A program made the position numbers and the translations under genes. The notes below the pieces were generated by a model that was not told the DNA's origin, ran no database searches, and saw only the letters and a list, made by a program, of their open reading frames with translations. A stretch of 64,000 nt of DNA from Myxococcaceae bacterium (GTDB lineage: Bacteria > Myxococcota > Myxococcia > Myxococcales > Myxococcaceae), in the NCBI GenBank assembly GCA_016793095.1, contig JAEUJQ010000064.1:1-64000 (forward strand). The letters run 5' to 3'. Numbering within the stretch: the stretch's first letter is position 1; each line of letters opens with the position of its first letter. This document shows positions 823 to 64,000 of the stretch, one piece after another.

Positions 823-1763
823 GCGTCGTTGTCGCTGTTGCGAGGGTTGGCAATACACTGGCGGTCGCAGCAGACGCCTGGGCCGCCATCGACGGAACAC
901 GCGACGCCCACCGTCGCGGTAGCGCAGTTCGCCGGCGTCTGGCACGTGCCGGAAAGGCACTGCGTCGTGCCGGCGCACACGTTGCCGCATGCGCCACAGT
1001 TGGGCGAGGAGACGGAGAGGTCGACACACGCGCTTGCGCAGCACCGGCCCGCACGCCCACTCCCGAGACTGCATGTCGAGTTCTCGGTCGCCGAGGTGCA
1101 CGTGGTGGTGGCACACGCAGCGCCCCCTGACGAGAGGGTGACGCACGCGGTTCCGACGTTGCAGCCGCCTCCGTCAGCCCCGCACCCGGCGACACAGGAA
1201 CCGGTTGCGCACAACGTCGTCGGGCACGAGAGACCACAACTCCCACAGTGACTCGAGTCGCTACTCAGGTTGACGCAGGAGCTCCCGCAGCGCTGAGTGG
1301 GAGCCGCGCACACCACTGGCCCACCACCGCCACCCCCTTGCCCGCCCGACGTCGCAGCGCCGCCAGCGCTCGCCGCTCCACCCCCTTGCCCGCCCGACGT
1401 CGCAGCGCCGCCAGCGCTCGTCGCTCCACCTCCTTGCCCGCCCGACGTCGCAGCGCCGCCAGCGCTCGTCGCGCCACCTCCTTGCCCGCCCGACGTCGCA
1501 GCGCCGCCAGCGCTCGCCGCTCCACCCCCTTGCCCGCCCGACGTCGCAGCGCCGCCAGCGCTCGCCGCTCCACCTCCGCGATTCAGTACCGTGCAGAGGC
1601 CCGACACACAGACCTCTGTGCCTTGGCACACGGCACACGCCGCCCCGCGCGTACCACACTGCCCTTCCTGGCTCGCCACGCACTCGCCCGTCGCTCCGCA
1701 ACAGCCGAGGCAGGTGCCGGGCCCGCACGGCGCGGGACACCCCACCAGCCACGCTCCACACAC
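729..1763 (-). CDS. Cys-rich, Gly/Ala/Ser-repeat lipoprotein-like protein, 5' end damaged
   Basis: The frame begins at GTG 1763 and gives about 344 residues. Its first residues, CGAWLVGC, contain a good lipobox (LVGC), but there is no signal-peptide n-region or h-region before it in this frame. This suggests a truncated or frameshifted lipoprotein. After a Cys-rich segment comes a low-complexity linker of five 16-residue Gly/Ala/Ser repeats. Next are Cys modules of the type CGSSCVNLSSDSSHCGSCG and CVDLSVSSPNCGACG, which are common in extracytoplasmic myxobacterial proteins. The C-terminus stops shortly after CANGTCVGPDGG, and its 3' end overlaps the convergent ORF that starts at 643. Function unknown; a surface or adhesive role is only a guess. 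Confidence 0.6.
   Translation of the reverse strand: MCGAWLVGCPAPCGPGTCLGCCGATGECVASQEGQCGTRGAACAVCQGTEVCVSGLCTVLNRGGGAASAGGAATSGGQGGGAASAGGAATSGGQGGGATSAGGAATSGGQGGGATSAGGAATSGGQGGGAASAGGAATSGGQGGGGGGPVVCAAPTQRCGSSCVNLSSDSSHCGSCGLSCPTTLCATGSCVAGCGADGGGCNVGTACVTLSSGGAACATTTCTSATENSTCSLGSGRAGRCCASACVDLSVSSPNCGACGNVCAGTTQCLSGTCQTPANCATATVGVACSVDGGPGVCCDRQCIANPRNSDNDAHCGACGSACPSQATCANGTCVGPDGGRVLA
1333..1572 (-). repeat. five tandem 48-bp repeats
   Basis: Five head-to-tail units of exactly 48 bp lie at 1333, 1381, 1429, 1477 and 1525. They are nearly identical and differ mainly at the codon that alternates between Ala and Thr. On the minus strand each unit codes for 16 residues of Gly, Ala, Ser, Thr and Gln within the Cys-rich protein. 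Such repeats can gain or lose copies by slippage. Confidence 0.9.
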
Positions 1764-2044
1764 GTGAGCATCCGCCCGATCGCGGTCGCGTGAGGCCCGA
1801 GCGCCGCTTCCAGGCCGGGGGCGTAGTTGGAGATGGGGGAGCCGGGCCTGATGCCGGCGATGTGTCCGAAGTCGCGCAGCGCGGCCACCTGCGCGGGGTG
1901 CAGCGAGCGCTCGGGCAGCGCGAACTCGTAGACGAGGTCCTGCATGAAGGCCCAGGCGTCGTCGTCGGAGAACGACTCTGCGTCGACGCCCCGGTCGAGC
2001 GACTGGATGAAGCGCAGCGCCGCCCGAAGGACGTGAGCGTCCAT
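1583..2044 (-). CDS. hypothetical protein, probably truncated at its 3' end
   Basis: This ORF starts with ATG at 2044 and overlaps the stop of the upstream coiled-coil gene by one base (TGATG), so translation is probably coupled. The first 95 or so residues look like a natural, mostly helical soluble protein (for example SFSDDDAWAFMQDLVYEFAL and PGLEAALGPHATAIGRMLT). After about position 1763 the frame reads through the Cys-rich gene in another frame and becomes Arg/Ala/Val-rich without sense. The true product may therefore end near 1760, or the original 3' end was lost. I do not recognise a family. Confidence 0.5.
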   Translation of the reverse strand: MDAHVLRAALRFIQSLDRGVDAESFSDDDAWAFMQDLVYEFALPERSLHPAQVAALRDFGHIAGIRPGSPISNYAPGLEAALGPHATAIGRMLTCVERGWWGVPRRAGPAPASAVAERRASAWRARKGSVVRAGRRVPCAKAQRSVCRASARY

Positions 2045-2334
2045 CAGGCCACGGTGAGGAGCCGCTTGAGCTCCTTCACCTCGGTGCTCAGGGCACGAAC
2101 CTCTTTCTCGAGCTCCTTCTGGCGCTCCACTGCGCGCTTGTAGGCCGGCGGAGAGAGCAGCGCGCGCGCCATCATGTCCTTGTGGCGCTTGAGGCGGTCC
2201 TTCGTCGTGGCGAGCTTCTTCTCGGTCGCCTCGAGCTTCTTCTGCATCTTCGAGAGCGCGTCGGGCGACATGAAGCGGCTGGAGACACCGGCCGCTCCTG
2301 CAGAGCCACGTCGGACGGGAGCCGAGGTCGTCAT
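2044..2334 (-). CDS. small coiled-coil protein
   Basis: This is a 96-residue protein if started at ATG 2334 (MTTSAPVRRG). A longer in-frame start exists at 2382, but the sequence before 2334 looks non-native. Residues from about 22 to the end form a charged helical coiled coil, with segments such as MQKKLEATEKKLATTKDRLK and QKELEKEVRALSTEVKELKR. No catalytic motif and no signal peptide are visible. It is the first gene of a pair, coupled by a TGATG overlap to the gene that follows. Function unknown; the shape suggests a structural or partner-binding role. Confidence 0.65.
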   Translation of the reverse strand: MTTSAPVRRGSAGAAGVSSRFMSPDALSKMQKKLEATEKKLATTKDRLKRHKDMMARALLSPPAYKRAVERQKELEKEVRALSTEVKELKRLLTVA

Positions 2335-2493
2335 GCCCGGCAGCCAAGTCCTTCCGACCGGCCAGCGCAAGGGGCCCCACAAGTGCTGAGCGGCCCCGCG
2401 GAGCTGGCTGTGCTGACCGTCTGCGCACTTTCACCTTCGCGCGGTCCGCGGTGAGCAGGTAGACGGGCGGCGCCTCGTCACCCAGGAGCCCGC

Positions 2494-4506
2494 ATGCGAC
2501 GCCTCGCCCTCGGCCTCACCACCACCCTCTGCCTCGCCTGCCCGAAGGAGCCGGCGAAGGAGGCGCCGAAGCCCGCGCCCGCGAACGCCGCGCCCGTCGT
2601 GGCCGCGGTGAAGAAGCCCACCTTCGACCAGCTCTCGCGGCTCGACTTCAACGCCCGCGCGCAGGAGGCCTTCCTGCCCCTCTTCTGGCGCGACGACAAC
2701 GACGGCAACAAGGCGCTGGAGCCCGCCGAGCTCGCCGTCCTCTGGGGGCCGCAGAACGCGACCCGCTCCACCTGGGTCGATGACAAGGGCGAGTTCACCG
2801 CGGCGTTCGTGGCCGCCTGGGACGGGCTGGTGAAGGGCGTGGACGACAAGGCGCTGCCGGCCGACGAGCAGAAGCGGCTCGGCCTCGTGCGGCTCGAGCT
2901 GTCCCAGGGCCGCCCGACGCTGGTCGAGACGGACCTCTCGAAGGGCACCGACGAAGACCGCGCCGTGGTGAAGCACGTGCTGGACGCCGCGCTCGCCATC
3001 GAGCGCCTGCACGCGAAGCAGCTGGGCACCGACACGATGGAGGCGAAGGACCCGGCGTCGAAGGCGCTCTTTCACCGCAACCAGGAGCCCTTCTGCGTCG
3101 CGCCCAGGACGGAGAAGGACGAGGCCTGCACGGCCATCGCCCCGAAGCCGAAGCGCATCGTCGGTCTCTACCCGGCCGCCCTGCAGGAGGACCCGAAGTT
3201 CTGCGACAGGCTCGCGAAAGAGAAGAACGCGAAGGAGCTGACCGGCCACTTCTCCGTCGTCGTCGCGGACGGCAGGGGCTTCAAGGCGGTGCCGTACGCC
3301 GAGGCGTTCAAGGCCGACATGGAGGCGGTCGCGACCTCACTCGAGGCCGCGGCGAACGCCCTCACCTCCGGGGGCGAGAAGGCGTTTCAGGCGTACCTGC
3401 GCGCGGCGGCAGGCTCCTTCCGCTCCAACGACTGGGAGCCGGCCAACGAGGCGTGGGTGGCGATGGGGCCCACCAACTCGAAGTGGTACCTGCGCATCGC
3501 CCCCGACGAGGTCTACTACGAGCCGTGCGCGTGGAAGGCCGGCTTCCACGTCAGCTTCGCGCGCATCAACCCCGACTCGCTCGCGTGGCAGCAGAAGCTC
3601 GAGCCGGTGAAGGGCGAGATGGAGAAGGCCCTCGCCGCGCTGGCCGGGCCTCCGTACAAGGCGCGCGACGTGAAGTTCAAGCTGCCGGACTTCATCGACG
3701 TGGTGGTGAACGCCGGTGACTCCCGCGATGCACACGGCGCCACCATCGGCCAGTCGCTGCCGAACTGGGGCAAGGTGGCCGAGAAGGGCGGCCGCACCGT
3801 CGCGATGACGAACCTCTACACCGACCTCGACAGCCAGAAGGCGCTCGAGGCGCAGATGGCGTCGCTCTTCTGCCCGGCGCTCATGAAGAGGGCCACCACC
3901 GACGCGAAGCCCGCGGTGATGAGCGTGGTGCTGCACGAGGCCGCCCACAACCTCGGCCCCAGCCACGAGTACAAGGTGAAGGGCAAGGAGGACGACGAGG
4001 TGTTCGGCGGGCCGCTCGCCTCCACCATGGAGGAGCTCAAGGCCCAGACGGCGGCGCTCTACTTCGCGCAGTGGCTGGTGGCGAAGGGCGTCATCACCCA
4101 GGACGAGGCCGACGCGGCGGTGGTGCGCGACGTCGCCTGGGGCTTCGGGCACGTGAGCCGCGGCATGTACACGGCGTCGGGCAAGCCGCGGAACTACAGC
4201 CAGCTCGCGTCGATTCAGCTCGGCACCCTCACGAAGGCCGGCGTGCTGACGTTCAAGGCCGACGAGAAGGCCGCCAACGGCTCGGACGTGGGCTGCTACG
4301 ACATCGACTTCGCGAAGTGGAAGCCGGCCGTCGATGCGCTCGGGAAGCGCGTGCTGATGGCCAAGGGCAAGGGCGACAAGAAGGACGCCGAGGCGATGGT
4401 GGCCGAGTTCGTCGACGCGAAGGACGAGTGGGCGAAGCAGCGTGACGTCATCACCGAGCGCTGGCTGCGCGCGCCGAAGGCCACCTTCGTGTACGCGGTG
4501 AAGTGA
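2494..4506 (+). CDS. lipoprotein with zinc-metallopeptidase (gluzincin, M49-like) motif
   Basis: This is a 670-residue protein with a lipoprotein signal peptide (MRRLALGLTTTLCLAC; Cys16 would be lipidated), then a Pro/Ala/Lys linker. Residues near 65-75 read WRDDNDGNKALEPAEL, an EF-hand-like acidic loop. The core holds HEAAH at about residues 481-485 and EE at about 513-514 (STMEELKAQTA). This arrangement recalls the HExxxH...EECRAE zinc site of dipeptidyl peptidase III (M49), although the His motif here has the shorter HExxH spacing. The length also fits the M49 family. It probably acts as an envelope-anchored peptidase, but substrate and activity are inference. It is transcribed alone. A stem-loop follows at 4526-4553. 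Confidence 0.75.
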   Translation: MRRLALGLTTTLCLACPKEPAKEAPKPAPANAAPVVAAVKKPTFDQLSRLDFNARAQEAFLPLFWRDDNDGNKALEPAELAVLWGPQNATRSTWVDDKGEFTAAFVAAWDGLVKGVDDKALPADEQKRLGLVRLELSQGRPTLVETDLSKGTDEDRAVVKHVLDAALAIERLHAKQLGTDTMEAKDPASKALFHRNQEPFCVAPRTEKDEACTAIAPKPKRIVGLYPAALQEDPKFCDRLAKEKNAKELTGHFSVVVADGRGFKAVPYAEAFKADMEAVATSLEAAANALTSGGEKAFQAYLRAAAGSFRSNDWEPANEAWVAMGPTNSKWYLRIAPDEVYYEPCAWKAGFHVSFARINPDSLAWQQKLEPVKGEMEKALAALAGPPYKARDVKFKLPDFIDVVVNAGDSRDAHGATIGQSLPNWGKVAEKGGRTVAMTNLYTDLDSQKALEAQMASLFCPALMKRATTDAKPAVMSVVLHEAAHNLGPSHEYKVKGKEDDEVFGGPLASTMEELKAQTAALYFAQWLVAKGVITQDEADAAVVRDVAWGFGHVSRGMYTASGKPRNYSQLASIQLGTLTKAGVLTFKADEKAANGSDVGCYDIDFAKWKPAVDALGKRVLMAKGKGDKKDAEAMVAEFVDAKDEWAKQRDVITERWLRAPKATFVYAVK

Positions 4507-4525
4507 CGGGCCAGCGCACAAGGTT

Positions 4526-4553
4526 GTCCCTCGGGAGGTTGTTCCCCGGGGAC
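4526..4553 (+). terminator. stem-loop after the metallopeptidase gene
   Basis: GTCCCTCGGGA and TCCCCGGGGAC form an 11-bp stem with two internal mismatches around a 6-base loop, 20 bases after the stop codon. No T-tract follows, which is usual in very GC-rich genomes. Confidence 0.4.
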
Positions 4554-4870
4554 GAGAGTGAAGGCGTTCACCTTGAGCTGCACGACCTCGCGGCGACCAG
4601 CGTGAAGCGGTCGGCACTCGCGAGCGCGTGCCTATGTCGAGCAGTGTGAAGCCAGTCGGTGGTGGCCTGCTCGGACCAACCATCGCTTCGGGCTGTCTGT
4701 CGCTCCGGGTGTGGCCTCGTTCACCAACGAGAGCCCGGCGGCGACGCTGCGTTCATCCACTTCCTCCGGCCAGGGAGCACTTCGGGGAGAACCAGGGAGC
4801 GTCCGTCGCGAGACTCCTTTCGCGGTGAGCAACGGAAGTGTGACGAACTCGTCGCGTCTGCGTCAAGCCC

Positions 4871-4886
4871 GTCAGGTCCACCTGAC
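4871..4886. promoter_or_regulatory. 16-bp palindrome upstream of the regulator gene
   Basis: GTCAGGT CC ACCTGAC has perfect 7-base arms around a 2-base centre. It lies 55 bases from the centre of the FNR-like box and about 130 bases before the likely start codon. It does not match the FNR consensus, so a second regulator could bind here. Confidence 0.4.
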
Positions 4887-4925
4887 AGGTTTCAAGGAGT
4901 TGGGGGACGCGCGAGGTTTGCGTGG

Positions 4926-4939
4926 TTGATGGCCATCAG
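4926..4939. promoter_or_regulatory. FNR-like box
   Basis: TTGATGGCCATCAG matches the consensus TTGAT-N4-ATCAA at 9 of the 10 fixed positions. It lies 75 bases before ATG 5014 of a regulator that has the FNR-type recognition helix. This makes autoregulation likely. Confidence 0.55.
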
Positions 4940-5013
4940 GAGAAATCGTGCGCCTCCAGCCCCCCCACTTGCGGCTGATCAGGGCTGGCACAGACCCTGC
5001 TCAAGGCCTCCAC

Positions 5014-5655
5014 ATGGTCGAGAACCCGGTCGAGCGGTGCTCGCAGTGCGCAGTCAACACGACGGGCCGCTGCCCGTTCACGAGCCGGAAGGTCCACGCC
5101 GGGGAGCGGCTGTGGATGCAGGGCGACGTGCCACCCGAGGTCGTGTTCGTCCGAGACGGGCTGCTGAGCCTCTCGTCCACGGAGCCCAGCGGCACGGAGT
5201 CGCTCTCGACGGTGCGCGGGCCCCGCTCGCTGATCGGCACCGAGAGCCTGACGAGCCGCCCGGCCCACGCGTCCGTCGAGGCGCTCACCGACGCCACCCT
5301 GTGCACCACGCCGCCCTCGCAGCTCCAGCAATGGGTCGGCCCCACGACGCCAGCCGCCTCGCTCGTCGGCCTGCTGGTGGCCGAGCACGACCGCAACGCC
5401 CGCGACACCACCCTCCGCACGGGACCGTCACTGGCGCGGCTCGCCCGCTTCCTCCTCGAGTACGCCGGGCTGGTGGACGCTGGCCGGAAGGCGCCCTTCT
5501 CGAAGCAGCACGTGGCCCGCATCCTCGGGATGCGCGCCGAGACCCTCTCCCGTTGCCTGAGGCAGCTGGTGGACTCGGGCATCATCGAGTCCGGGCGGCA
5601 TGTGCAGGTGAAGGACGCGTCACGCTTGTCCGTCATCGCCCGCGGCACCGCGTGA
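5014..5655 (+). CDS. FNR-type Crp/Fnr transcription regulator with four conserved cysteines
   Basis: I chose ATG 5014 (MVENPVERC); a longer GTG start at 4948 adds 22 unlikely residues. The 213-residue product has Cys9, Cys12 and Cys20 at the N-terminus and Cys97 at the end of the cyclic-nucleotide-binding-like beta roll (ALTDATLCTTP). E. coli FNR places its [4Fe-4S] ligands the same way (C20, C23, C29, C122). The helix-turn-helix near residues 160-190 holds RAETLSRCLRQL. It contains the E..SR residues by which FNR reads TTGAT half sites. It is probably an oxygen- or NO-responsive regulator. An FNR-like box lies upstream. The hemolysin III gene follows after 47 bases and may be co-transcribed. 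Confidence 0.8.
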   Translation: MVENPVERCSQCAVNTTGRCPFTSRKVHAGERLWMQGDVPPEVVFVRDGLLSLSSTEPSGTESLSTVRGPRSLIGTESLTSRPAHASVEALTDATLCTTPPSQLQQWVGPTTPAASLVGLLVAEHDRNARDTTLRTGPSLARLARFLLEYAGLVDAGRKAPFSKQHVARILGMRAETLSRCLRQLVDSGIIESGRHVQVKDASRLSVIARGTA

Positions 5656-44626: not shown

Positions 44627-45418
44627 CTACTTGCGAAGCTGGAACTTCACCTTCTCGGTGCCGAAGGTGAACTCGTCACCATCGCGGATCGGGCGACGGG
44701 TCACCTTCTCCTTGTTGGGCCCGAAGAAGGTGCCGTTCGACGAGTTGAGGTCCTCGAGGACGAAGCCGCCGGCCTCACGAATGACGCGCGCGTGCTCGCG
44801 GCTCACGCGGTTCGACTCGATGACGAACTCGCACGTCTTGCCCCGGCCGATGGTGACGACGTCAGTCGCCATCTTGTACGGCTCGCGGTTGGCCATGACG
44901 AGCGTGAGGGACAGCCTGCCGCCGCCGCTCGGGCGGGGCGGTGGAGGCGCTGGCTCGGGCTCCTCTTCGGGCGGCAGGTCCTCCTCTTCGGCAACGGGCT
45001 CTTCGTCGGGCGGCGCCTCTTCGGGGAAGTCTTCGTCGGGAGCCGGCTCGTCGAACGGGTTGCCGTCTTCTTCGGGCGCCGGCTCGGGCTCCGGCTCCGG
45101 CTCCGGTTCGGGCTCGGGCGCCGGCTTCGCGCGCGGCGGCGGCGCGGGCGCAGGACGCGCAGGGGCTGCAGGAGCAGCAGGCGCAGGCCTGGCGGAGGCC
45201 GCGGGCTTGAGGCCCGGAGGCGCGGCGGGAGCTGGTGCGGCTGGAGCGGCGGCGCCCGCCTGCAGGCCACGCCCGGGCACCACGTAGCCGTTGAGCCGGG
45301 CAAGGGTGAAGACGGCCTGCGCGACGAGTGCATCGCGGCCCACGCCCATCTCGGAGGACATCAGATCGAGCGCTTCCCAGAGGTGCTCGGGCAGGGCGAC
45401 GGGCTTGGAGTCTGACAT
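44627..45418 (-). CDS. FHA domain protein with acidic-proline linker
   Basis: 263 residues from ATG 45418 (MSDSKPVALPEHLWEALDLM). The first 45 residues form a small helical part, possibly ribbon-helix-helix-like. A long Ala/Pro stretch and then a Glu/Pro stretch with (EP)n repeats and acidic clusters follow to about residue 165. The C-terminus is a classic FHA domain: VTIGRGKTCEFVIESNRVSR, EHARV, LEDLNSSNGTFF. FHA domains bind phosphothreonine, so the protein may be a partner of the Ser/Thr kinases encoded downstream. It is divergent from the rhodanese gene. Confidence 0.85.
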   Translation of the reverse strand: MSDSKPVALPEHLWEALDLMSSEMGVGRDALVAQAVFTLARLNGYVVPGRGLQAGAAAPAAPAPAAPPGLKPAASARPAPAAPAAPARPAPAPPPRAKPAPEPEPEPEPEPEPAPEEDGNPFDEPAPDEDFPEEAPPDEEPVAEEEDLPPEEEPEPAPPPPRPSGGGRLSLTLVMANREPYKMATDVVTIGRGKTCEFVIESNRVSREHARVIREAGGFVLEDLNSSNGTFFGPNKEKVTRRPIRDGDEFTFGTEKVKFQLRK

Positions 45419-45493
45419 TGCGTCGGCCACCTTATCGCCTGACTGCGCGCTGTCGAACTTGTGTTTTCGGTCGCCCGCACGCATGGAACAGCC

Positions 45494-45847
45494 ATGTCGC
45501 TCTTCGACTCCACCGCGAAACCCAACCCCGCCGGTCACCGAGACCTCGAGGTGACGTTGCTGCCCCTGCCCCCGCCGCCGGAGGTGCGCCTCATCGACGT
45601 GCGCGAGCCCCACGAGTTCGTCGGCGAGCTCGGCCACGTGCCGGGCGCGACCCTGGTGCCGCTCGCGTCCGTGCCAGCGCAGGCGATGTCGTGGGACAAG
45701 CAGGCGACGTACGTCCTCATCTGCCGCAGCGGCGGCCGGTCGGGCCAGGCCGCGCAGGTCCTCACCCGGTCGGGCTTCGCGCGCGTCATCAACCTGGTGG
45801 GCGGCATGCTGGCGTGGAACCAGGCCGGCCTGAAGACGGAGCGGTGA
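45494..45847 (+). CDS. rhodanese-like sulfurtransferase
   Basis: 117 residues from ATG 45494 (MSLFDSTAKP). It is a single rhodanese domain with LIDVREPHEFVGELGHVPGA and the active-site loop LICRSGGRSGQAA, whose Cys is the sulfur carrier. It ends RVINLVGGMLAWNQAGL, the usual C-terminal signature. Its stop overlaps the start of the transglycosylase gene (GTGA). Confidence 0.9.
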   Translation: MSLFDSTAKPNPAGHRDLEVTLLPLPPPPEVRLIDVREPHEFVGELGHVPGATLVPLASVPAQAMSWDKQATYVLICRSGGRSGQAAQVLTRSGFARVINLVGGMLAWNQAGLKTER

Positions 45848-48105: not shown

Positions 48106-48558
48106 TCAGCCGAGCAGCCGGTGAATGCGGCGCACGGCCTCGACGGGCGGGTTGAGGAACTTCATGCGCGCGCCGCCGTGCTCACCGAAGGCGCCAATCA
48201 CCACGACCTTCAGCTCGAGCGGCGTGGTCGGGTCATCGGGCAGGAACAGGCGAATGGTGATGCGGCTGCCCTTCTTCGGCGTCGGCCCCGACGCCACGCC
48301 CACCCCGAAGGTCGAGAGGTCGTGCGTGCGCATCATCACCGCCTGGCCCCCGTCGCCCGCCTCGAGATCCAGGGCGACGGCGACGCGTGGCGTGGCGCGG
48401 CGGTCTCGAAAGGCGCGGCGCTCGGGCGCGCCCGTCTGAATGCGCTGGACGAGCTTCGAGAGCGAGTCCGAGCCTCCGCGGCGGTCCTTCATGCGCGGCA
48501 GCTTCGGCGTGAGGAGGGGGAGCGTGGTGTCGTCCACCTTCTTCTTCTCGGAAGCCAT
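48106..48558 (-). CDS. PilZ domain protein with N-terminal extension
   Basis: 150 residues from ATG 48558. A charged 50-residue N-terminal tail precedes RDRRATPRVAVALDLEAG. The DxSxxG position reads HDLSTFGVGVA, and the domain ends GGARMKFLNPPVEAVRRIH. It is of the PilZ type common in myxobacteria. c-di-GMP binding is plausible. It is divergent from the large Ser/Thr kinase gene at 48651. Confidence 0.8.
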   Translation of the reverse strand: MASEKKKVDDTTLPLLTPKLPRMKDRRGGSDSLSKLVQRIQTGAPERRAFRDRRATPRVAVALDLEAGDGGQAVMMRTHDLSTFGVGVASGPTPKKGSRITIRLFLPDDPTTPLELKVVVIGAFGEHGGARMKFLNPPVEAVRRIHRLLG

Positions 48559-48650: not shown

Positions 48651-51600
48651 GTGGTCGCACCGGCTGACGCCCCACGAACGCTGTGCCCGATGTGCGGAGC
48701 GCCCGCCCCCGCAGGAGCCACCACGTGTCCCCAGTGCAAGAAGCCCCTCGACAGCGTGGACCCGCTCGTCGGCCGCGTCATCAACGGGTTCAAGATCCTG
48801 TCGGTCATCGGCGCCGGGGGCATGGGGAAGGTGTACCGGGCCGAGCAGACGAAGCTGCAGCGCACGGCCTGCATCAAGACGCTGCTGCCCGAGCTGGCGA
48901 ACGACCCGGACCTCGCGCAGCGCTTCGAGCGCGAGGGCGTCGCGACGGCCCTCATCCGCCACAACAACATCGTCGGCATCTATGACTTCGGGCACACCGA
49001 CGACGGCATCCTCTACATCGCGATGGAGTACGTGGAGGGGCGCACGCTGCGCACCATCCTCCGCACCGAGGCGCCCGTGCCGTCGCGCCGCGCCATCGCG
49101 CTGGTGCAGCAGATCCTGTCGGCGCTCGAAGAGGCGCACGCGAGCGGCGTCGTGCACCGCGACCTCAAGCCGGCGAACGTGCTCGTCACCCGCAACCGCG
49201 ACGGCAGCGAGCTGGTGAAGGTGGTGGACTTCGGCATCGCCAAGCTCGTCGGGCAGGGCGGGCCGAAGGTGCAGGGCGAGGGGCTCACCCGCACCGGCAT
49301 GGTGGTGGGCAGCGTGGGCTACATGCCGCCCGAGCAGATCCTGGGCGAAGACATCGGCGGCTCGGCCGACCTCTATGCCGTAGGCGTCGTGCTGTGGGAG
49401 CTGCTCGCCGGGCGCCGGCTCTTCCAGGGCAGCAACGAGGTGGAGATCGCCAAGAAGCACCTCACCCTGACGCCCGAGTCCCCGTCGGTGGCCGCCAGCG
49501 TGCCGTTGCCGGCGGGCCTCGACGCGGTGGTGCTCAAGGCCCTCGAGAAGACGGCCGACCGCCGCTTCCAGTCGGCCCGCGAGTTCCGCGAGGCCCTCGA
49601 GCGCGTCACCTACGCCGAGTGGGGAGGCGCCACGCCACACTCGAGCTCGGCGCTGCGCGGGCTCGCGACCTCGGCGGCGCAGCTGCGCGACGCGTCCCGA
49701 GTCACCCCGAGCGGCAACTCGGCGCTGCAGGGCCTCAAGGGGCTGGTGCCCGACCACCTGCTCGCGCACGTCGCCGACCTGCCCCGCCACGTCGTCACCA
49801 CCGAGAAGCGCCTGCTCACCGTCGCCTACGGCGAGCTGTCGGGCCAGGCGGGCCTCACCGAGGTCCTCGGAGCGCCGGCGGTGAAGGCGCAGGTGACCGC
49901 GCTCGGCGAGGCCTTCGCCAGCGTGGTGAGCCGCCGCGAGGGCCAGCTCGAGCGCCTGCCGGGCTCGGGCTTCCTCCTCGTCTTCGGGCTCCTGCACGCG
50001 CACGGCGACGACCCGCTGCGCGCCGTCGAGACGTGCTTCGAGCTCGTCGGCGCCGTCGAGCAGGCGAACCGCCGGCTGCCGCGGCCGCTGCAGCTCCGCC
50101 TCGGCCTGCACGCCACCACGGTGACGAGCGCGTACGACGAGAGCAGCCTGTCGGACTCGCTGGGCGTCGCCGAGGTGGTGGCCGTCTCACGCCGCCTGCT
50201 CAGCACGATGCCGACGGGCGCCATCATCGCCAGCAAGGCGCTCGAGAAGCTGGTGCACGGCGCCGTGCAGGCCGCCGAGCGCGAGGTGGTGGTGGCCGGC
50301 CAGAAGCAGGAGCCGGTCTTCGAGCTCCTCGGACGCGCGGAGAAGGCCGACTTCCGCCGAGCCCTCGTGGGCCGCCAGGCCGAGCTCGCGGTGCTCAGCC
50401 AGCTCATCGAGCTGGTGCGCGCGCGCAAGGCTGGAGGGGTGCTGCTGGTCGGCGCCCCGGGCTTCGGGAAGAGCCGCCTGCTCGCCGAGGCCGTCACCAT
50501 CGCCCGCCGCAACGGCGTGCAGGTGTTGACCGCGCGCGGAGGCCGCAGCGCCGCGCCTGCGCCCTTCGAGGTCGCGCGGCAGCTCGTGCAGTCGGCCCTC
50601 GACCGCGGCGGCGCGTCGAACGCCCCGCTGTCCGCCCTCGCGTCCCTCGGCGTCCCGGCCGCCGACGTGGCGCGCCTCGAGCGCCTCTTCTCGCAGGGCC
50701 GCGCCGACACCCAGGCCAGCCGCGAAGACGACGCCGCGAAGGACCGCGCGGCGCTGCTGCAGGTGTTCGACCGAACGGCGACCCGCGGGCCGGTGGTGCT
50801 CGCCATCGACGACCTGCACCTCATCGACGACGTCTCGCGCCAGCTGGTGGAAGAGCTGCAGCGCCGCGCGGGCAAGCACCCCTTCGGCCTCGTCGCCGCC
50901 GCGCGCCCCGGCGACCTCGCGGCCATCGCGCCCCGCCTGCGCCGCGTCGACCTCGGCGCCTTCGACCTCCCCACCACGCAGGCCCTCGTCGCCGCGCTGC
51001 TCGACGGGCCGCCCGCGCCCGAGCTGCTCGACTTCGTGTGGAAGCGCTCCGAGGGCAGCCCCTTCTTCGTCGAGGAGCTGGTGCACTCCCTCGTCGAGAC
51101 GGGCGTCGCGCGGCGCGAGGGCGACGAGTGGGTGCTGGGTGACGTGACGGCCGCCAACGTGCCCGACGCCCTGGGCCTCGTCATCGCCGCGCGCCTCGAC
51201 CGCCTCAGCCCCGCGGCGCGAAGCCTGCTGCGCGTCGGCGCCGTCATCGGCCGCTCCTTCTCCCTGCCGCTCGCCGCTGAGGCCTCACCTGACAAGCTCG
51301 ACGTGGCGCAGGTCTCGGAAGAGTGCGTGCAGCGCGGCGTGCTGGCGCGCGGTGAGCAAGGCGAGCTGCGCTTCGAGCAGAGCCTCCTCCAGGAGGTGCT
51401 GCTGCAGCGGCTGACGCCCATCGACCTCAAGTTCCTCAACGCGCGCATCGGCGAGGCCCTCGAGCGGGGCGCGACCGGCGAGCTGCCGTTCGAGGTGATG
51501 GCGAAGCACTTCACGCTCGCGGAGCAGCCGCGCAAGGCCATCAGGTACCTGCGCCTCGCGGGCGACCGCGCCTTCGAGCGGGGCGCCTTCGCCGCCGCGG

Positions 51601-52466
51601 TGGACGCCTTCGTGCAGTGCCTCAAGCTGATGCAGCAGGAGGCGAGCCGGGCGGGGCCGATGACGGAGCAGGCGGCCACGGCGCTCCTCGAGGTCGCGGG
51701 CCGCGCGATGGGCGCCCAGGTCATGGTGTCGCCTGACCGCGCGCTCGCGCTCTACGACGCGCTGATGCCCGTCATCCCCACCGCGATGGGCGGGGCCGCA
51801 CGTGCCGAGCCGCTCCGACAGCGGGGCCTCGCGCTTCAGCGGCTGTCGCGGCTCCCCGAGGCGCAGGCGTGCCTCCGCGACGCGCTCGCGCTGCTGGCGG
51901 CGGGAGAGAACGAGACGCTGGTGGCCAACCTGCGCTCGGACCTCGCCTCGGTGATGGAGGCGCGCGGCGACCTCGGCGCGGCGACCGCGATGCTGCTCGA
52001 CGGCCTCGCGCTCGTCTCGACGCAGCGGGTGAAGGACCAGCACCTGCTCTGGCAGTACCTGAACGGCCTGGGCCGCCTGCACCTGCGCGCCGGCAAGGTG
52101 CAGCCCGCCGAGGAGTTCTTCGAGAACGCCCGCCAGCGGGCGAAGCAGGTCGGCAGCGATGCCGGCGAGTCGAAGGCCATCGCGAACCTGGCGGTGGCGC
52201 GCGCGCAGCGGGGCGACTCGGCGTCGGCGCTCGCGCTGTTCGGTGAGGCCGTGCAGCTGGCAGAGAAGGCCGGCGACCGACTGGGCGTCTTGCGGGTCCT
52301 CTACAACCGGGCGCGCGTGATGATGGCGTCGAACCCCGCCGCCGCCCAGGCGGACCTCGACGTCGTGTTGGACGAGGCGCGCGACATCGGCTGGCGCGAG
52401 GGTGAGGCGCTGGCCGCGCGCGCGCAGGAAGAGCTGAAGGGCCCGCGCCCCTCTGCCCCGCGCTGA
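48651..52466 (+). CDS. multidomain Ser/Thr kinase: zinc ribbon, kinase, cyclase-like, AAA, TPR
   Basis: 1271 residues. Zinc ribbon: Cys12, 15, 26 and 29. The Hanks kinase at about 45-330 is intact: GAGGMGKVY, CIKTL, VVHRDLKPANVL, VVDFGIAK, VGSVGYMPPEQI. A class III cyclase-like domain at about 375-565 keeps the fold but has lost both metal-binding Asp residues (VAYGELSG and PGSGFLLVFG in place of the D-containing motifs), so it should not make cyclic nucleotide. The AAA/STAND ATPase follows with Walker A LLVGAPGFGKSRLL (about residue 601) and Walker B VVLAIDDLHLIDD. Then comes a helical TPR array to the end. This kinase family is common in myxobacteria. The partner is unknown; an FHA protein is encoded 3 kb away. 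Confidence 0.9.
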   Translation: MVAPADAPRTLCPMCGAPAPAGATTCPQCKKPLDSVDPLVGRVINGFKILSVIGAGGMGKVYRAEQTKLQRTACIKTLLPELANDPDLAQRFEREGVATALIRHNNIVGIYDFGHTDDGILYIAMEYVEGRTLRTILRTEAPVPSRRAIALVQQILSALEEAHASGVVHRDLKPANVLVTRNRDGSELVKVVDFGIAKLVGQGGPKVQGEGLTRTGMVVGSVGYMPPEQILGEDIGGSADLYAVGVVLWELLAGRRLFQGSNEVEIAKKHLTLTPESPSVAASVPLPAGLDAVVLKALEKTADRRFQSAREFREALERVTYAEWGGATPHSSSALRGLATSAAQLRDASRVTPSGNSALQGLKGLVPDHLLAHVADLPRHVVTTEKRLLTVAYGELSGQAGLTEVLGAPAVKAQVTALGEAFASVVSRREGQLERLPGSGFLLVFGLLHAHGDDPLRAVETCFELVGAVEQANRRLPRPLQLRLGLHATTVTSAYDESSLSDSLGVAEVVAVSRRLLSTMPTGAIIASKALEKLVHGAVQAAEREVVVAGQKQEPVFELLGRAEKADFRRALVGRQAELAVLSQLIELVRARKAGGVLLVGAPGFGKSRLLAEAVTIARRNGVQVLTARGGRSAAPAPFEVARQLVQSALDRGGASNAPLSALASLGVPAADVARLERLFSQGRADTQASREDDAAKDRAALLQVFDRTATRGPVVLAIDDLHLIDDVSRQLVEELQRRAGKHPFGLVAAARPGDLAAIAPRLRRVDLGAFDLPTTQALVAALLDGPPAPELLDFVWKRSEGSPFFVEELVHSLVETGVARREGDEWVLGDVTAANVPDALGLVIAARLDRLSPAARSLLRVGAVIGRSFSLPLAAEASPDKLDVAQVSEECVQRGVLARGEQGELRFEQSLLQEVLLQRLTPIDLKFLNARIGEALERGATGELPFEVMAKHFTLAEQPRKAIRYLRLAGDRAFERGAFAAAVDAFVQCLKLMQQEASRAGPMTEQAATALLEVAGRAMGAQVMVSPDRALALYDALMPVIPTAMGGAARAEPLRQRGLALQRLSRLPEAQACLRDALALLAAGENETLVANLRSDLASVMEARGDLGAATAMLLDGLALVSTQRVKDQHLLWQYLNGLGRLHLRAGKVQPAEEFFENARQRAKQVGSDAGESKAIANLAVARAQRGDSASALALFGEAVQLAEKAGDRLGVLRVLYNRARVMMASNPAAAQADLDVVLDEARDIGWREGEALAARAQEELKGPRPSAPR

Positions 52467-59857: not shown

Positions 59858-62800
59858 ATGTCGCCATTCGCCAGTGGCCGCCTGTGGCAGACTCGGAGTC
59901 GGGTGGGCCACACGTTTCACCATCGCTTCGAGTCGGGGAAGGCGTTCCAGTCGAGCTGGGAGGAGTCGCTGCACGGTGGTGAGCTGTTCGTGCTCACGCC
60001 AGCGAGCCCCGACATCGGCGACGCCGTCGTCGTCGAGCTGGCCGTCGGCGAGCATCGGCAGCCGCTCGAGGCCGAGGTCATCGGGCTCGAGACCGACCTC
60101 GCGGGCCAGCCCGGCGTTCGGGTGGCGATGACGCCGCGCTCGCTGCCGGCGCTGCGGGCCTTCGCGGACAAAGTGGTGGGCGCGATGGCCCGGGAGGCCC
60201 TCGCCCTCGAGGACACCGCGTCGCCGCACGAGGCCGCGACGGTGAAGGAGACCGATGCACAGGCTCCCGGTTCTTCGGAGCGCCAGGCTCACGTGAGAGA
60301 CCTCGGTGCTGGTGAGGCAGGCGCCGCGTCGGTGGGCCACGGCGACACGCACGTCTCGCTCCGGCCCTCGCAGGTGTCGCTGCCGCGCCTCGACGACCGT
60401 CCCTCGCCGGCCACCACGGGCGTGTTGCCGCCGCGGCCACAGGCTCTGCCCCGGCCGCTCGAGTCGACCGGCGTGCTGCCGCCGCGCCCGGAACCCACTG
60501 GCATGCTGCCGCCCCGGCCGCCTGTCACGCCCGCCGCGGTCGCCTCGCCTCCGCCCGCTGGCGTGCGCCTGGGTGACACCAACCCGGTACCCCGCATCAC
60601 CCCCTCGAGCGGGGACGGCCCTGGCGCGAGCGGGGAGGTGCGCCTCAAGCCCGGTGACGTCATCGGCGGCCGCTTCCAGGTCGAGGCCCACATCGGCGAA
60701 GGCGGGATGGGCGAGGTGTACCGGGCGACACACGTGTACCTGAAGCGCACCGTCGCGCTGAAGGTGCTGCACCGGCGCCTCGTGTCGAACCAGGACGCCT
60801 GGGCCCGCTTTCAGCGCGAGGCCGAGCTCGTCTCGCAGCTCGAGGGGCCCAACATCGTCCGCACCTTCGACTTCGGGCGCCTCGACGACGGCCAGCCCTT
60901 CCTCTCGATGGAGTTCGTCGAGGGCGAGACGCTGGACAAGATGCTCGACCGCGGCCCGCTCGAGGTGAAGGACGCGGCCACCGTGCTCGCGCAGGTGTGC
61001 GAGGGCCTCGCCGAGGCGCACGCGCTGGGCATCGTGCACCGCGACCTCAAGCCCCCCAACATCATGATGGGGCGGCGCCGCGACGGACGAGTCATCGCGA
61101 AGATCCTCGACTTCGGCATCGCGCGCCTCGCCGCGGCCGGCCAGGAGAAGCTGACCGCCACGGGCGCCGTCATCGGCACGCCGTCGTACCTCGCCCCCGA
61201 GCAGGCCCAGGGGGGCGACATCGACGCGCGCACCGACCTCTACTCGCTGGGCTGCGTGGCCTACGAGCTGCTCACCGGCCGCGTGCCCTTCAAGGCCGAC
61301 TCGCTGGCGCGCCTCATCCTCATGCACCTGCAGGAGCGGCCGCGGCCTCTCGAGGCCTACCGTCCGTCGCTCGGCGAGTGGCCCGCGGTGAACGAGGTCG
61401 TCCTCAAGGCGCTCGAGAAGGACCCGAAGGCGCGCTTCCAGTCGGTGACCGAATTCGCCGAGGCGCTGAGCGAGGCTGTCGGAGGCAAGGCGAAGGCCTC
61501 CGAGAAGGACACGCCCGCGTCCGAGCCCGCGTGGGGCGTCGAGAAGATGCCCCTCATTACGGCGCCACCGCCGCAGTCCCTCGCCCTCGCGCCCGCGCCG
61601 ACGCCTCAACCGCCTCCTGGCATCGGCGCGCGACCCGGGCTGTCAGGCCTCACGCCCGCGTTCGTGCCGCGACCGTCCAGCACCTCGGGGCAAACCACCG
61701 CCTCCATCCCGCCGGGCGAGACGACGCGGGGGGTGTCGGGCCTGCAGACGGCGTACGTGCCGCCGGGTGGCCTCCAGGCGCCGCAGCCCAGGCTCGCACA
61801 GCCCACGTCGCTCGCGGCCTCTGACTACGCCAACGCCGGCGCGTCCGAGGGCCGTCTGGGCCGCCTCGGCGAGGTGCTCGCGCAGTTCAACTTCCCCCTG
61901 AGCCCCGACCGCGTCGCGAAGTGCGAGGCGCTGCGCGCGACGATGCCGGGCTCGCTGCCCATCGCCTGGGTGCTGGCCATCGAGCCGCTGCGCGCGCAGG
62001 ACCCGACGGCCTTCGGGCAGCTCCTGACGGTGTGCACCGACGTGGCGCTCGAGTGGGGTGGGCTGCTCGACGACGTCACCTCCTCGACCTTCGTCTTCGT
62101 CTTCTTCGGGCTGGGAGCACAGGCCCGCTGCGTGCTCGCCGCCCAGGAGGTACGCGAGCGGCTCGAGGTGCGCCTCGACGGCGAGAAGGCCGACGCACCG
62201 GCGCTGAAGCTGGGCATCTCAGGCAGCCGCCTGCGCGCAGACCCTGACGGCGCCATCGAGGGCGAGGCCGTCGGTGCCGCGAAGGCGCTCGCGAAGGGCA
62301 CCGCCGCCGGCCGCTGCGTGCTCGCGCGCGGCTTCGCGAACGCGGTGAACGACCTGCTCGACCTCGAGCCCGTCGATGACGACGTCGTGCAGGTGGTGGG
62401 CCGGAAGCCGGTGGCCGCGAAGGCCATGGTGACGGTTGGCTTCGACGCCGTCGCTCAGGCCCTCGACGCGCGCGTGGGAGCGCTGCTCAGGGGTGAGGTA
62501 GCGCCGCTGGTGGTGACGGGCCCCCGCCGCGCCGGGCGAACGCAGGTGGCCCAGGAGTTCGCGGTGCGCGCCCAGCAGCAGGGGGCCTTCGTCCTCTTCT
62601 CGTCGGGCCTGCGCGGCGGCGGCGGCAGCTCCCTCGCCGAGCTCGTCTGCCAGCTCTGCCACGTGCCCTTCTCCGCCCGTCACGCGGGGCTCGGGCCCGC
62701 GCTCGACAAGCTCGGCCTGCAGCCAGCGCAGCGCGAAGCGGTGCTCCTCGCCTGCCAGCTGCGCGTCGCGCCGACGCCGGTGGGTGGGCGGCAGGCCGCC

Positions 62801-64000
62801 TTCGCGCTGCGCCTCGCCGTCGCCGCCGCGGCCCAGCAGCGACCGGTCGTCCTCGTCTTCGACGGCCTCGACCAGACCGACGAGTCCAGCGTCGAGGCCT
62901 TCGCCGAGCTCTGCGCGACGAGCGGCAAGCGCGAGCTGCTGGTAGGCTTCACGACGGCCGAGCAGGCCGGCGCCTTCGGGAAGACCCAGCAGGTGGCGCT
63001 GCCGGGGCTCACGCCCGCCGACGTCGACACCCTCCTCACCGGGTTCCTGGGCAATCCACCCTCCGCCGAGCTGCGCGACGCCCTGCTCTCCCGGTCGCGG
63101 GGGCTTCCCGGGGTGCTGGTGGACTTCGCGCTGTTGACGGCCGAGCGTGGCGCGCTGCGGCCCCGGGGCGATTCGCTGGTGCTCGAAGGCAGCGTGCCGC
63201 AGGTGGACAACGCCACCCTGCCCCAGGCGCGCCTCAAGGCCGTGGGCACGCGCGTGTGCCGGCTGCTCGAGGTGGTGGCGGCGCTGGGCGAGGCGGCGGA
63301 CGGCGCCACCGCCGCGAAGGCGCTCCCCGGCATCGCGCAGGCGGCGTGGGGCCGGGCCGTCACCTCGCGGCTCCTGCGGAGCGCGGGGCACGGGCGCGTG
63401 GCGCTCGCGCCGGGCTTCGAGGGCCCGCTCGCCACTGCGCCGCTCGTGGGAGGCAAGCCGCTCGCGCAGCGCCTCGCCGTCGTCCTCGCCGAGCTCTCGC
63501 GGACGAACCCCACGCTGGCGCCGCGCGTCGCGGAGCAACTGAGCCGCGCTGGCGACACGACACGGGCGGGCCAGGCCTGGAAGGCCGTGGCCGAGCGGGC
63601 GCTGGCCGAGCGGGACCTGGCGACCGTCTGCCGCGCCCAGCAGGGCATGGCCGAGGCGCTCGCTTCGCACGCCTACGCCTCGTCACGGCAGGCGGTGACG
63701 GCGCGGCTCGAGCTCTTCTCGCGCGCCGCCATCTGCGCGCTGCTGCTCCGGGACAAGGCGAAGGCGCGCGCGCTGCTCGACGCGGCCAACGAGCTCGCCG
63801 ACCAGAGCCAGGTGGACTGCATCGAGTACCGGCTGGCGGCGGCGCGCGTGCTGCGCTTCGAGGGGCGCCACGACGAAGCCCAGGGCGCGCTCGACGACGC
63901 GCTGGCGGGGAGCCAGGGTACGGCGGCGGCGGCGGCGTGCCTGGCCGAGGTGGGCGAGGTGCAGGAGGCGGCGAACGACCTCGGCGGCGCGGTCGAGACG
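59858..64000 (+). CDS. multidomain Ser/Thr kinase: PilZ-like, kinase, cyclase-like, degenerate AAA, TPR (cut by window end)
   Basis: About 1380 codons are visible; no stop before 64000. The start is ATG 59858 or GTG 59903 (GGAG nearby). The first 100 residues resemble a PilZ-type domain (FESGKAFQSSWEESLHGGEL). A Pro-rich linker with repeated TGVLPPRP-like motifs follows. The kinase at about 270-540 is intact: GEGGMGEVYRAT, VALKVL, IVHRDLKPPNIM, ILDFGIAR, IGTPSYLAPEQ. A cyclase-like domain lacks the metal Asp residues (SSTFVFVFFG). The AAA part has TGPRRAGRTQVAQEF, where Arg replaces the Walker A Lys; Walker B (VVLVFDGLDQTD) is kept. A TPR-like end follows. Paralog of the 48651 kinase. Confidence 0.85.
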   Translation, partial: MSPFASGRLWQTRSRVGHTFHHRFESGKAFQSSWEESLHGGELFVLTPASPDIGDAVVVELAVGEHRQPLEAEVIGLETDLAGQPGVRVAMTPRSLPALRAFADKVVGAMAREALALEDTASPHEAATVKETDAQAPGSSERQAHVRDLGAGEAGAASVGHGDTHVSLRPSQVSLPRLDDRPSPATTGVLPPRPQALPRPLESTGVLPPRPEPTGMLPPRPPVTPAAVASPPPAGVRLGDTNPVPRITPSSGDGPGASGEVRLKPGDVIGGRFQVEAHIGEGGMGEVYRATHVYLKRTVALKVLHRRLVSNQDAWARFQREAELVSQLEGPNIVRTFDFGRLDDGQPFLSMEFVEGETLDKMLDRGPLEVKDAATVLAQVCEGLAEAHALGIVHRDLKPPNIMMGRRRDGRVIAKILDFGIARLAAAGQEKLTATGAVIGTPSYLAPEQAQGGDIDARTDLYSLGCVAYELLTGRVPFKADSLARLILMHLQERPRPLEAYRPSLGEWPAVNEVVLKALEKDPKARFQSVTEFAEALSEAVGGKAKASEKDTPASEPAWGVEKMPLITAPPPQSLALAPAPTPQPPPGIGARPGLSGLTPAFVPRPSSTSGQTTASIPPGETTRGVSGLQTAYVPPGGLQAPQPRLAQPTSLAASDYANAGASEGRLGRLGEVLAQFNFPLSPDRVAKCEALRATMPGSLPIAWVLAIEPLRAQDPTAFGQLLTVCTDVALEWGGLLDDVTSSTFVFVFFGLGAQARCVLAAQEVRERLEVRLDGEKADAPALKLGISGSRLRADPDGAIEGEAVGAAKALAKGTAAGRCVLARGFANAVNDLLDLEPVDDDVVQVVGRKPVAAKAMVTVGFDAVAQALDARVGALLRGEVAPLVVTGPRRAGRTQVAQEFAVRAQQQGAFVLFSSGLRGGGGSSLAELVCQLCHVPFSARHAGLGPALDKLGLQPAQREAVLLACQLRVAPTPVGGRQAAFALRLAVAAAAQQRPVVLVFDGLDQTDESSVEAFAELCATSGKRELLVGFTTAEQAGAFGKTQQVALPGLTPADVDTLLTGFLGNPPSAELRDALLSRSRGLPGVLVDFALLTAERGALRPRGDSLVLEGSVPQVDNATLPQARLKAVGTRVCRLLEVVAALGEAADGATAAKALPGIAQAAWGRAVTSRLLRSAGHGRVALAPGFEGPLATAPLVGGKPLAQRLAVVLAELSRTNPTLAPRVAEQLSRAGDTTRAGQAWKAVAERALAERDLATVCRAQQGMAEALASHAYASSRQAVTARLELFSRAAICALLLRDKAKARALLDAANELADQSQVDCIEYRLAAARVLRFEGRHDEAQGALDDALAGSQGTAAAAACLAEVGEVQEAANDLGGAVET

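Follow-up and report, generated by a model that had tools for sequence, protein, structure and literature searches.

Among described systems, the nearest kinase-PilZ protein is Pkn1 of Myxococcus xanthus, a Ser/Thr kinase joined to a PilZ domain that is predicted not to bind cyclic di-GMP (c-di-GMP), according to the accessible part of the source (PMC8316039). Here, we analyzed a 64,000-nucleotide stretch of DNA (the window; positions 1 to 64,000 of contig JAEUJQ010000064.1, assembly GCA_016793095.1) from a Myxococcaceae bacterium and, in particular, the gene that runs off its right end, the window gene, whose product likewise carries a kinase and a PilZ fold in one myxobacterial protein. As described in that source, Pkn1 differs in having kinase and PilZ only, and the same part of its source does not mention the cyclase-like, STAND and tetratricopeptide-repeat (TPR) parts that we assign to the window protein. 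A kinase and a cyclase fused with further domains are also found in TIGR03903, the TOMM system kinase/cyclase fusion, although the scores of the window protein (176.5 bits) and of a second kinase upstream (307 bits) are both far below the cut-off of 705.75. In contrast to kinase-cyclase-AAA-TPR proteins of the TIGR03903 type, the window protein has a PilZ-fold front, and its cyclase and STAND parts are degenerate. The Xanthomonas PilZ proteins stand alone, and structures of their complexes with FimX and PilB have been determined, whereas the PilZ fold of the window protein is fused to the kinase. Judged by its residues, the window protein is of the kinase-cyclase-STAND-TPR type, with everything except the kinase disarmed and an Arg P-loop kept.

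STAND proteins such as Apaf-1, NLRs and MalT are thought to act as ATP/ADP switches, and the STAND NTPase class is said to go back to Leipe et al. in 2004. Two precedents bear on a STAND domain with an altered P-loop. RecA K70R, a Walker A mutant, carries the same substitution as the window protein and has lost hydrolysis and, incompletely, ATP binding, in the part of the source available to us (PMC9769622); that mutant is laboratory-made, whereas the Arg of the window family is natural and fixed in most members. The iSTAND proteins of MoxR-vWA systems are likewise found in multicellular bacteria and have a STAND domain without catalytic activity, again by the available part of the report (PMC7159879). 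Their genes have MoxR and vWA neighbours; in the window protein the change is a conserved Arg and the protein is a kinase, with no such neighbours among the ten that were scanned. A naturally occurring Arg in Walker A is not mentioned in the accessible text of PMC7583971, and a search of the open literature with limited terms found no paper naming the family, which we do not claim to be unpublished.

The gene reads in a single uninterrupted frame from ATG 59858 on the + strand past the window end, with 1381 aa inside the window, and reaches a stop at contig position 64459, 459 bases beyond, giving 1533 aa from that ATG (positions 859-5460 of locus L006). GTG 59903 is the likelier start, because GGAG lies just 5′ of it and the L037 ortholog has a GTG start at the aligned place. 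The source assembly comprises 8.8 Mb in 93 contigs; the named orthologs come from two metagenome-assembled genomes, labelled Archangiaceae bacterium and Myxococcales bacterium. The features of the gene are as follows.

59858 to 64000, + strand: the whole gene within the window, with likely start GTG 59903 and stop at contig position 64459.
59906 to 60187, + strand: PilZ-fold front, residues 17-110, without c-di-GMP motifs (AlphaFold2, Foldseek, VIA-align, motif count).
60188 to 60658, + strand: Pro-rich linker, residues 111-267 (direct reading).
60659 to 61492, + strand: Ser/Thr kinase, residues 268-545, with motifs intact (Pfam, motif reading).
61946 to 62410, + strand: domain resembling class III cyclases, residues about 697-851, with loss of the catalytic residues (fold model, profile comparison).
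62438 to 63517, + strand: STAND NTPase-like region, residues about 861-1220 (AAA_16; Apaf-1, CED-4 and 6mfv matches).
62519 to 62542, + strand: Walker A GPRRAGRT, residues 888-895, with the Arg codon CGA at 62537-62539 (sequence).
62849 to 62872, + strand: Walker B VLVFDGLD, with Gly for the second acid, codon 62864-62866 (sequence, alignment).
63101 to 63109, + strand: GLP, the retained STAND GxP motif (alignment).
63518 to 64000, + strand: probable helical-repeat (TPR-like) tail, continuing to contig position 64459 (sub-cut-off solenoid and TPR-type matches; position and relatives).

The STAND region matches AAA_16 at residues 867-1028 (36.0 bits against a cut-off of 32.6) and resembles Apaf-1, CED-4 and 6mfv in Foldseek; the assignment relies on these Foldseek rows together with Pfam, since the VIA-align list for the two-domain model was filled by cyclases. 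The P-loop departs from the canonical Walker A, GxxxxGK[ST], and reads GPRRAGRT, as a first-pass annotation made from the letters alone had noticed. The change is kept in orthologs: the Walker A Lys position is R in 23 of the 30 family members, H in four, L in one and K in two. A sequencing or assembly error as the source of the Arg is ruled out by its presence at 23 loci through five codons (CGA, CGG, AGA, CGC and CGT). Furthermore, the second, catalytic acid of Walker B is Gly or Ala in 30/30 members, a loss that the first-pass annotation did not list, as it did not list the cyclase-like domain and the kinase-less paralogs described below. AAA_16 proteins of the same genome gave 66 matches, 18 of them above cut-off; the 16 of these with a locus were inspected, three being family members, and the other 13 all have Lys, which puts the Arg beyond chance. 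In the outgroup, Lys is present in 12/12 rows and the Walker B acid in 11/12.

The remainder of the nucleotide site is conserved. In alignment A3, which holds 28 of the 30 members (the 5′-truncated L140 and L141 were left out), all 23 R rows retain Gly893, Ser/Thr895 and Asp1002, and Gly1082 and Pro1084 of the GxP motif are present in 22/22, with one row gapped; across all A3 rows without a gap, Gly1082 is found in 27/27 and Pro1084 in 25/27. In the R rows, conservation of the six site columns ranks on average 27.7 of 557, a value that 0 of 100,000 random draws matched and that is to be read with the caveat that Gly and Pro columns are generally conserved and that the Arg column is invariant through the choice of rows. 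The dN/dS (ratio of nonsynonymous to synonymous substitution rates) of the STAND region is 0.14-0.25, from three ortholog pairs by a simple counting method. In the accessible part of PMC9769622, Walker A Lys-to-Arg changes in many cases leave ATP binding without hydrolysis. On the strength of the conserved site residues, the dN/dS values and that report, we favour, with moderate confidence, binding without hydrolysis.

To delimit the family, we searched for relatives first with the C-terminal region and afterwards with an alignment of 21 rows. Of the order's 145 genomes, 20 have the core at E up to 1e-20, and a survey of 195 genomes of the phylum shows an E-value gap between 1e-51 and 1e-24. 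The 30 members of the family, all from the same order as the window genome, form a clade with support 100/99. The family model gave 47 matches, of which 42 rows entered the trees; left out were L145, L146 and L062, which all have Lys, and the fragments L063 and L060, which have no P-loop. When the Walker columns are omitted from tree building, at least four changes are needed for the Walker A residue and two for the Walker B acid. Since the basal member L056 keeps the Walker A Lys but already lacks the Walker B acid, the simplest order would be that the Walker B acid was lost first and Lys was replaced by Arg later. A single exclusive clade of all R rows was rejected by the approximately unbiased (AU) test (p 9e-7), as is expected with H, L and one K member nested among the R rows. 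The nested K member, L139, is a possible reversal, its Lys either regained or retained, and the His/Leu residues of genus g16 are further drift at the same site.

Between the kinase and the STAND region, where Pfam gives no match, lies a hidden domain. The AlphaFold2 model of the core (residues 662-1220; mean predicted local distance difference test score, pLDDT, 90) folds at core positions 36-190 like a class III nucleotide cyclase, with Z 19 to 6ao9 among others, and hhalign against a profile of ten real cyclases from the same genome gives a probability of 96.3 (E=2e-9). The catalytic residues are lost across 15 cyclase-like domains of the family (alignment A4). Specifically, the first metal Asp is present in 0/15 against 10/10 real cyclases of the same genome, the second in 6/15 (not in the window protein) against 10/10, the transition-state Asn in 1/15 against 10/10, and the transition-state Arg in 0/15 against 9/10. 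The domain is very probably a pseudo-cyclase.

The front domain has the fold of PilZ and lacks its ligand motifs. Its AlphaFold2 model (pLDDT 88) finds its nearest solved folds in the Xanthomonas PilZ proteins XAC1133/XC1028 (3cnr, 3dsg, 4fou and 7lkm; about 20-22% identity), with Z 10.7-11.4 to 3cnr, 3dsg and 4fou by Foldseek and VIA-align and the upper value reached for 3cnr and 3dsg, whereas PilZ domains solved with bound c-di-GMP, among them 2rde, 4rt0 and 5y6g, reach Z of 5 to 6. The first 113 residues match TIGR02266, the myxobacterial PilZ-like model, weakly (E=2.4e-5; 24.4 bits against a cut-off of 68.7), as do, at E up to 1, 11 of the 23 front domains of the family (best 3.8e-7); Pfam PilZ (PF07238) matches none of five scanned front domains at E up to 10. 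The PilZ-like front suspected in the first-pass annotation is borne out by this weak match and the predicted fold. Its further idea, that the domain ties c-di-GMP to phosphorylation, is not supported: in the alignment of the 23 front domains (A2), [DN]xSxxG occurs in none and RxxxR in three, at scattered places, and the nearest folds are non-binders. The title of 3dsg speaks of 'trivial c-di-GMP binding activity', and the Pseudomonas and Xanthomonas PilZ proteins are described as not binding c-di-GMP in the part of PMC8389850 available to us. On the motif counts and nearest folds we reject a c-di-GMP-gated kinase.

The kinase is the sole domain keeping its catalytic residues, and it looks active on that basis. 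Pfam Pkinase matches residues 273-528 (E=2e-46); the Gly loop, the VALK Lys, the Glu and the HRD, DFG and APE motifs are all present, and the catalytic motifs are intact in 20/20 family kinases of the main type. By the same counting method and from three ortholog pairs, the dN/dS of the kinase is 0.08-0.19, while the linker in front of it has the highest value of the whole protein.

Paralogs show the core both with and without this kinase. The genome of the window holds three family members: the window gene; a paralog on contig C47 with the kinase present and the P-loop APRGSGRS; and the nearest paralog, on contig C89 (1196 aa, GARRSGRT), in which the PilZ-like front and the C-terminal half remain and the kinase is gone. 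Six members, of which L041 is 5′-truncated, make up the kinase-less clade (support 100/100), and in the flanking stretches that were fetched the kinase model detected no separate kinase near them. Among seven genomes of the genus, all drafts, an ortholog of the window gene is present in three, the kinase-less form in six and the C47 type in seven. At L139 6578-9547 (- strand), the same cyclase-STAND core stands behind a different kinase type (HRDVSPAN), without PilZ front or tail, which is a domain swap. From this swap and the kinase-less clade, the cyclase-STAND core is a module joined to various kinases or to none. Two minor features accompany the kinase-less form. A 102-bp tandem repeat (L007 5876-6077; 2.0 copies, 97% matches) lies in the linker that replaces the kinase of relatives. 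Genes for related FHA-like proteins precede three members on the same strand (L039 4310-5599, L040 5110-6348 and L045 3531-4937 (+)); in L039 the distance to the start is 14 bp, and the Pfam FHA cut-off is passed in L045 alone; open reading frames at L007 and L043 show no such gene upstream.

The protein can be pictured as a signalling kinase of several domains, from uncultured myxobacteria of the Archangiaceae type, in which only the Ser/Thr kinase retains its catalytic residues. Its front, with the PilZ fold, would most likely dock onto a putative partner protein and not sense c-di-GMP, and the pseudo-cyclase, with its residues lost, may have a regulatory role. Two changes are fixed in the STAND region, Walker A Lys to Arg and the missing Walker B acid, and its P-loop Gly, Ser/Thr, first Walker B Asp and GxP are all retained; the region likely binds nucleotide and may oligomerise or change shape, with hydrolysis poor or absent. 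Signals at the tail and the STAND region would then join or separate the kinase domains. In the sister clade, deletion of the kinase has left a scaffold without any intact enzyme. A family that keeps its binding residues and has a P-loop expected not to hydrolyse would be a natural test of the need for hydrolysis in STAND signalling, and the kinase-less sister clade in the same genomes a ready comparison of scaffold and enzyme function.

We tentatively prefer, with less than even confidence, the reading of the protein as a kinase scaffold with a STAND part that binds but does not hydrolyse nucleotide and with a front and a cyclase that are non-functional as sensor and enzyme. Several observations weigh against it. 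His (four) or Leu (one) occupies the Walker A Lys position in genus g16 (L058, L138, L140, L141 and L137), nested among Arg members, and these 5 of 30 members show that the Arg is dispensable in places; the C47-type clade has lost the first P-loop Gly too (Ala in 7/28 A3 rows), the nested L139 has Lys, and the residues retained at the STAND site may serve a structural role. In the cyclase fold, the first Asp is difficult to align and adjoins an invariant Glu, which leaves an unusual activity of that domain conceivable. The g16 residues and the missing Gly of the C47 type, with both the Walker A Lys and the Walker B acid gone, also speak for a STAND region that no longer binds nucleotide and survives as a structural or dimerisation module; the conservation of Gly893, Ser/Thr895, Asp1002 and GxP, and an Arg held through synonymous change, argue the other way, and we hold this to be unlikely. 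A more ambitious proposal is a doubtful though real possibility: an evolved Arg-type STAND switch with a nucleotide-holding P-loop, its Walker B disarmed before the Lys, would serve as a kinase-gathering hub, either one-way or permanently loaded, and the sister clade, having later dropped the kinase, would be a pure scaffold or competitor made of a PilZ unable to sense, a cyclase unable to cyclise and a STAND unable to hydrolyse. That the region is still an ATPase, its Arg helped by another basic residue or by an acid at position 1005, is improbable: Arg is a conservative change, and 25/28 rows have D or E at position 1005, two after the lost acid of Walker B, but Walker A K-to-R changes usually put an end to hydrolysis according to the available part of PMC9769622, and Arg is found in no other examined relative, with the outgroup uniformly Lys.

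The first-pass annotation had also seen two kinases diverging into an active and a pseudo-STAND form, the other being the upstream kinase.

48651 to 52466, + strand: upstream kinase with Zn-ribbon, kinase, pseudo-cyclase, STAND and TPR parts, a remote relative (Pfam, tree, alignment).

The distance of 11 kb given for this paralog is correct from start to start (the gap is 7.4 kb), but the kinship is remote, the family model scoring 83.6 bits for the upstream kinase against 728 for the window gene. Its Walker A (GAPGFGKS) and Walker B are intact, and its cyclase region is degenerate as well. It falls in the outgroup, grouped with L144 (support 97/96), and the change marks the whole subfamily of the window gene, which removes the proposed divergence. 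Close orthologs (67-70%) of the upstream kinase are in genomes G001 and G002 and those of the window gene in G003 and G006; of the seven genus genomes, only that of the window has both, absence being weak evidence in drafts. The two genes do not look like a conserved pair. That c-di-GMP on the PilZ front drives the kinase, within an active/pseudo pair with the upstream kinase, is accordingly very improbable, even with the PilZ fold of the front and a canonical PilZ gene beside the upstream kinase in its favour: the motifs are absent, the nearest folds are non-binders, the upstream kinase is outgroup and the close orthologs of the two genes co-occur in the window's genome alone. Equally improbable is a variant of the iSTAND conflict systems, i.e. 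a defence function. Inactive STAND domains in multicellular bacteria are a precedent (PMC7159879, in its available part), but Pfam found MoxR or vWA genes in 0 of the ten scanned neighbours, and the PADLOC matches shown for the window gene belong to kinase models and fall chiefly within its kinase domain, with none for the kinase-less paralog. On those PADLOC matches we also rejected the label of defence gene.

A conserved neighbourhood was rejected for the window gene itself: no partner stands out, and a downstream amidase alone is common to the L037 locus. Just downstream, past the window end, lies a gene for a Cys-rich protein of 782 aa (L006 5467-7815, - strand) with a long run of ATAGG repeats and no Pfam match at E up to 1e-5, and about 4 kb downstream of the gene end there is a further Ser/Thr kinase with TPR repeats (L006 9666-12665, - strand). 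Back to back with the upstream kinase, window positions 48106-48558 (- strand) encode the canonical stand-alone PilZ protein, which matches PF07238 (E=1.1e-10) and carries RRATPR and DLSTFG. Farther upstream, an FHA-domain protein (44630-45637, - strand; PF00498 E=2.9e-17) contains a long Pro/Glu-rich stretch, and the region is rich in signalling genes.

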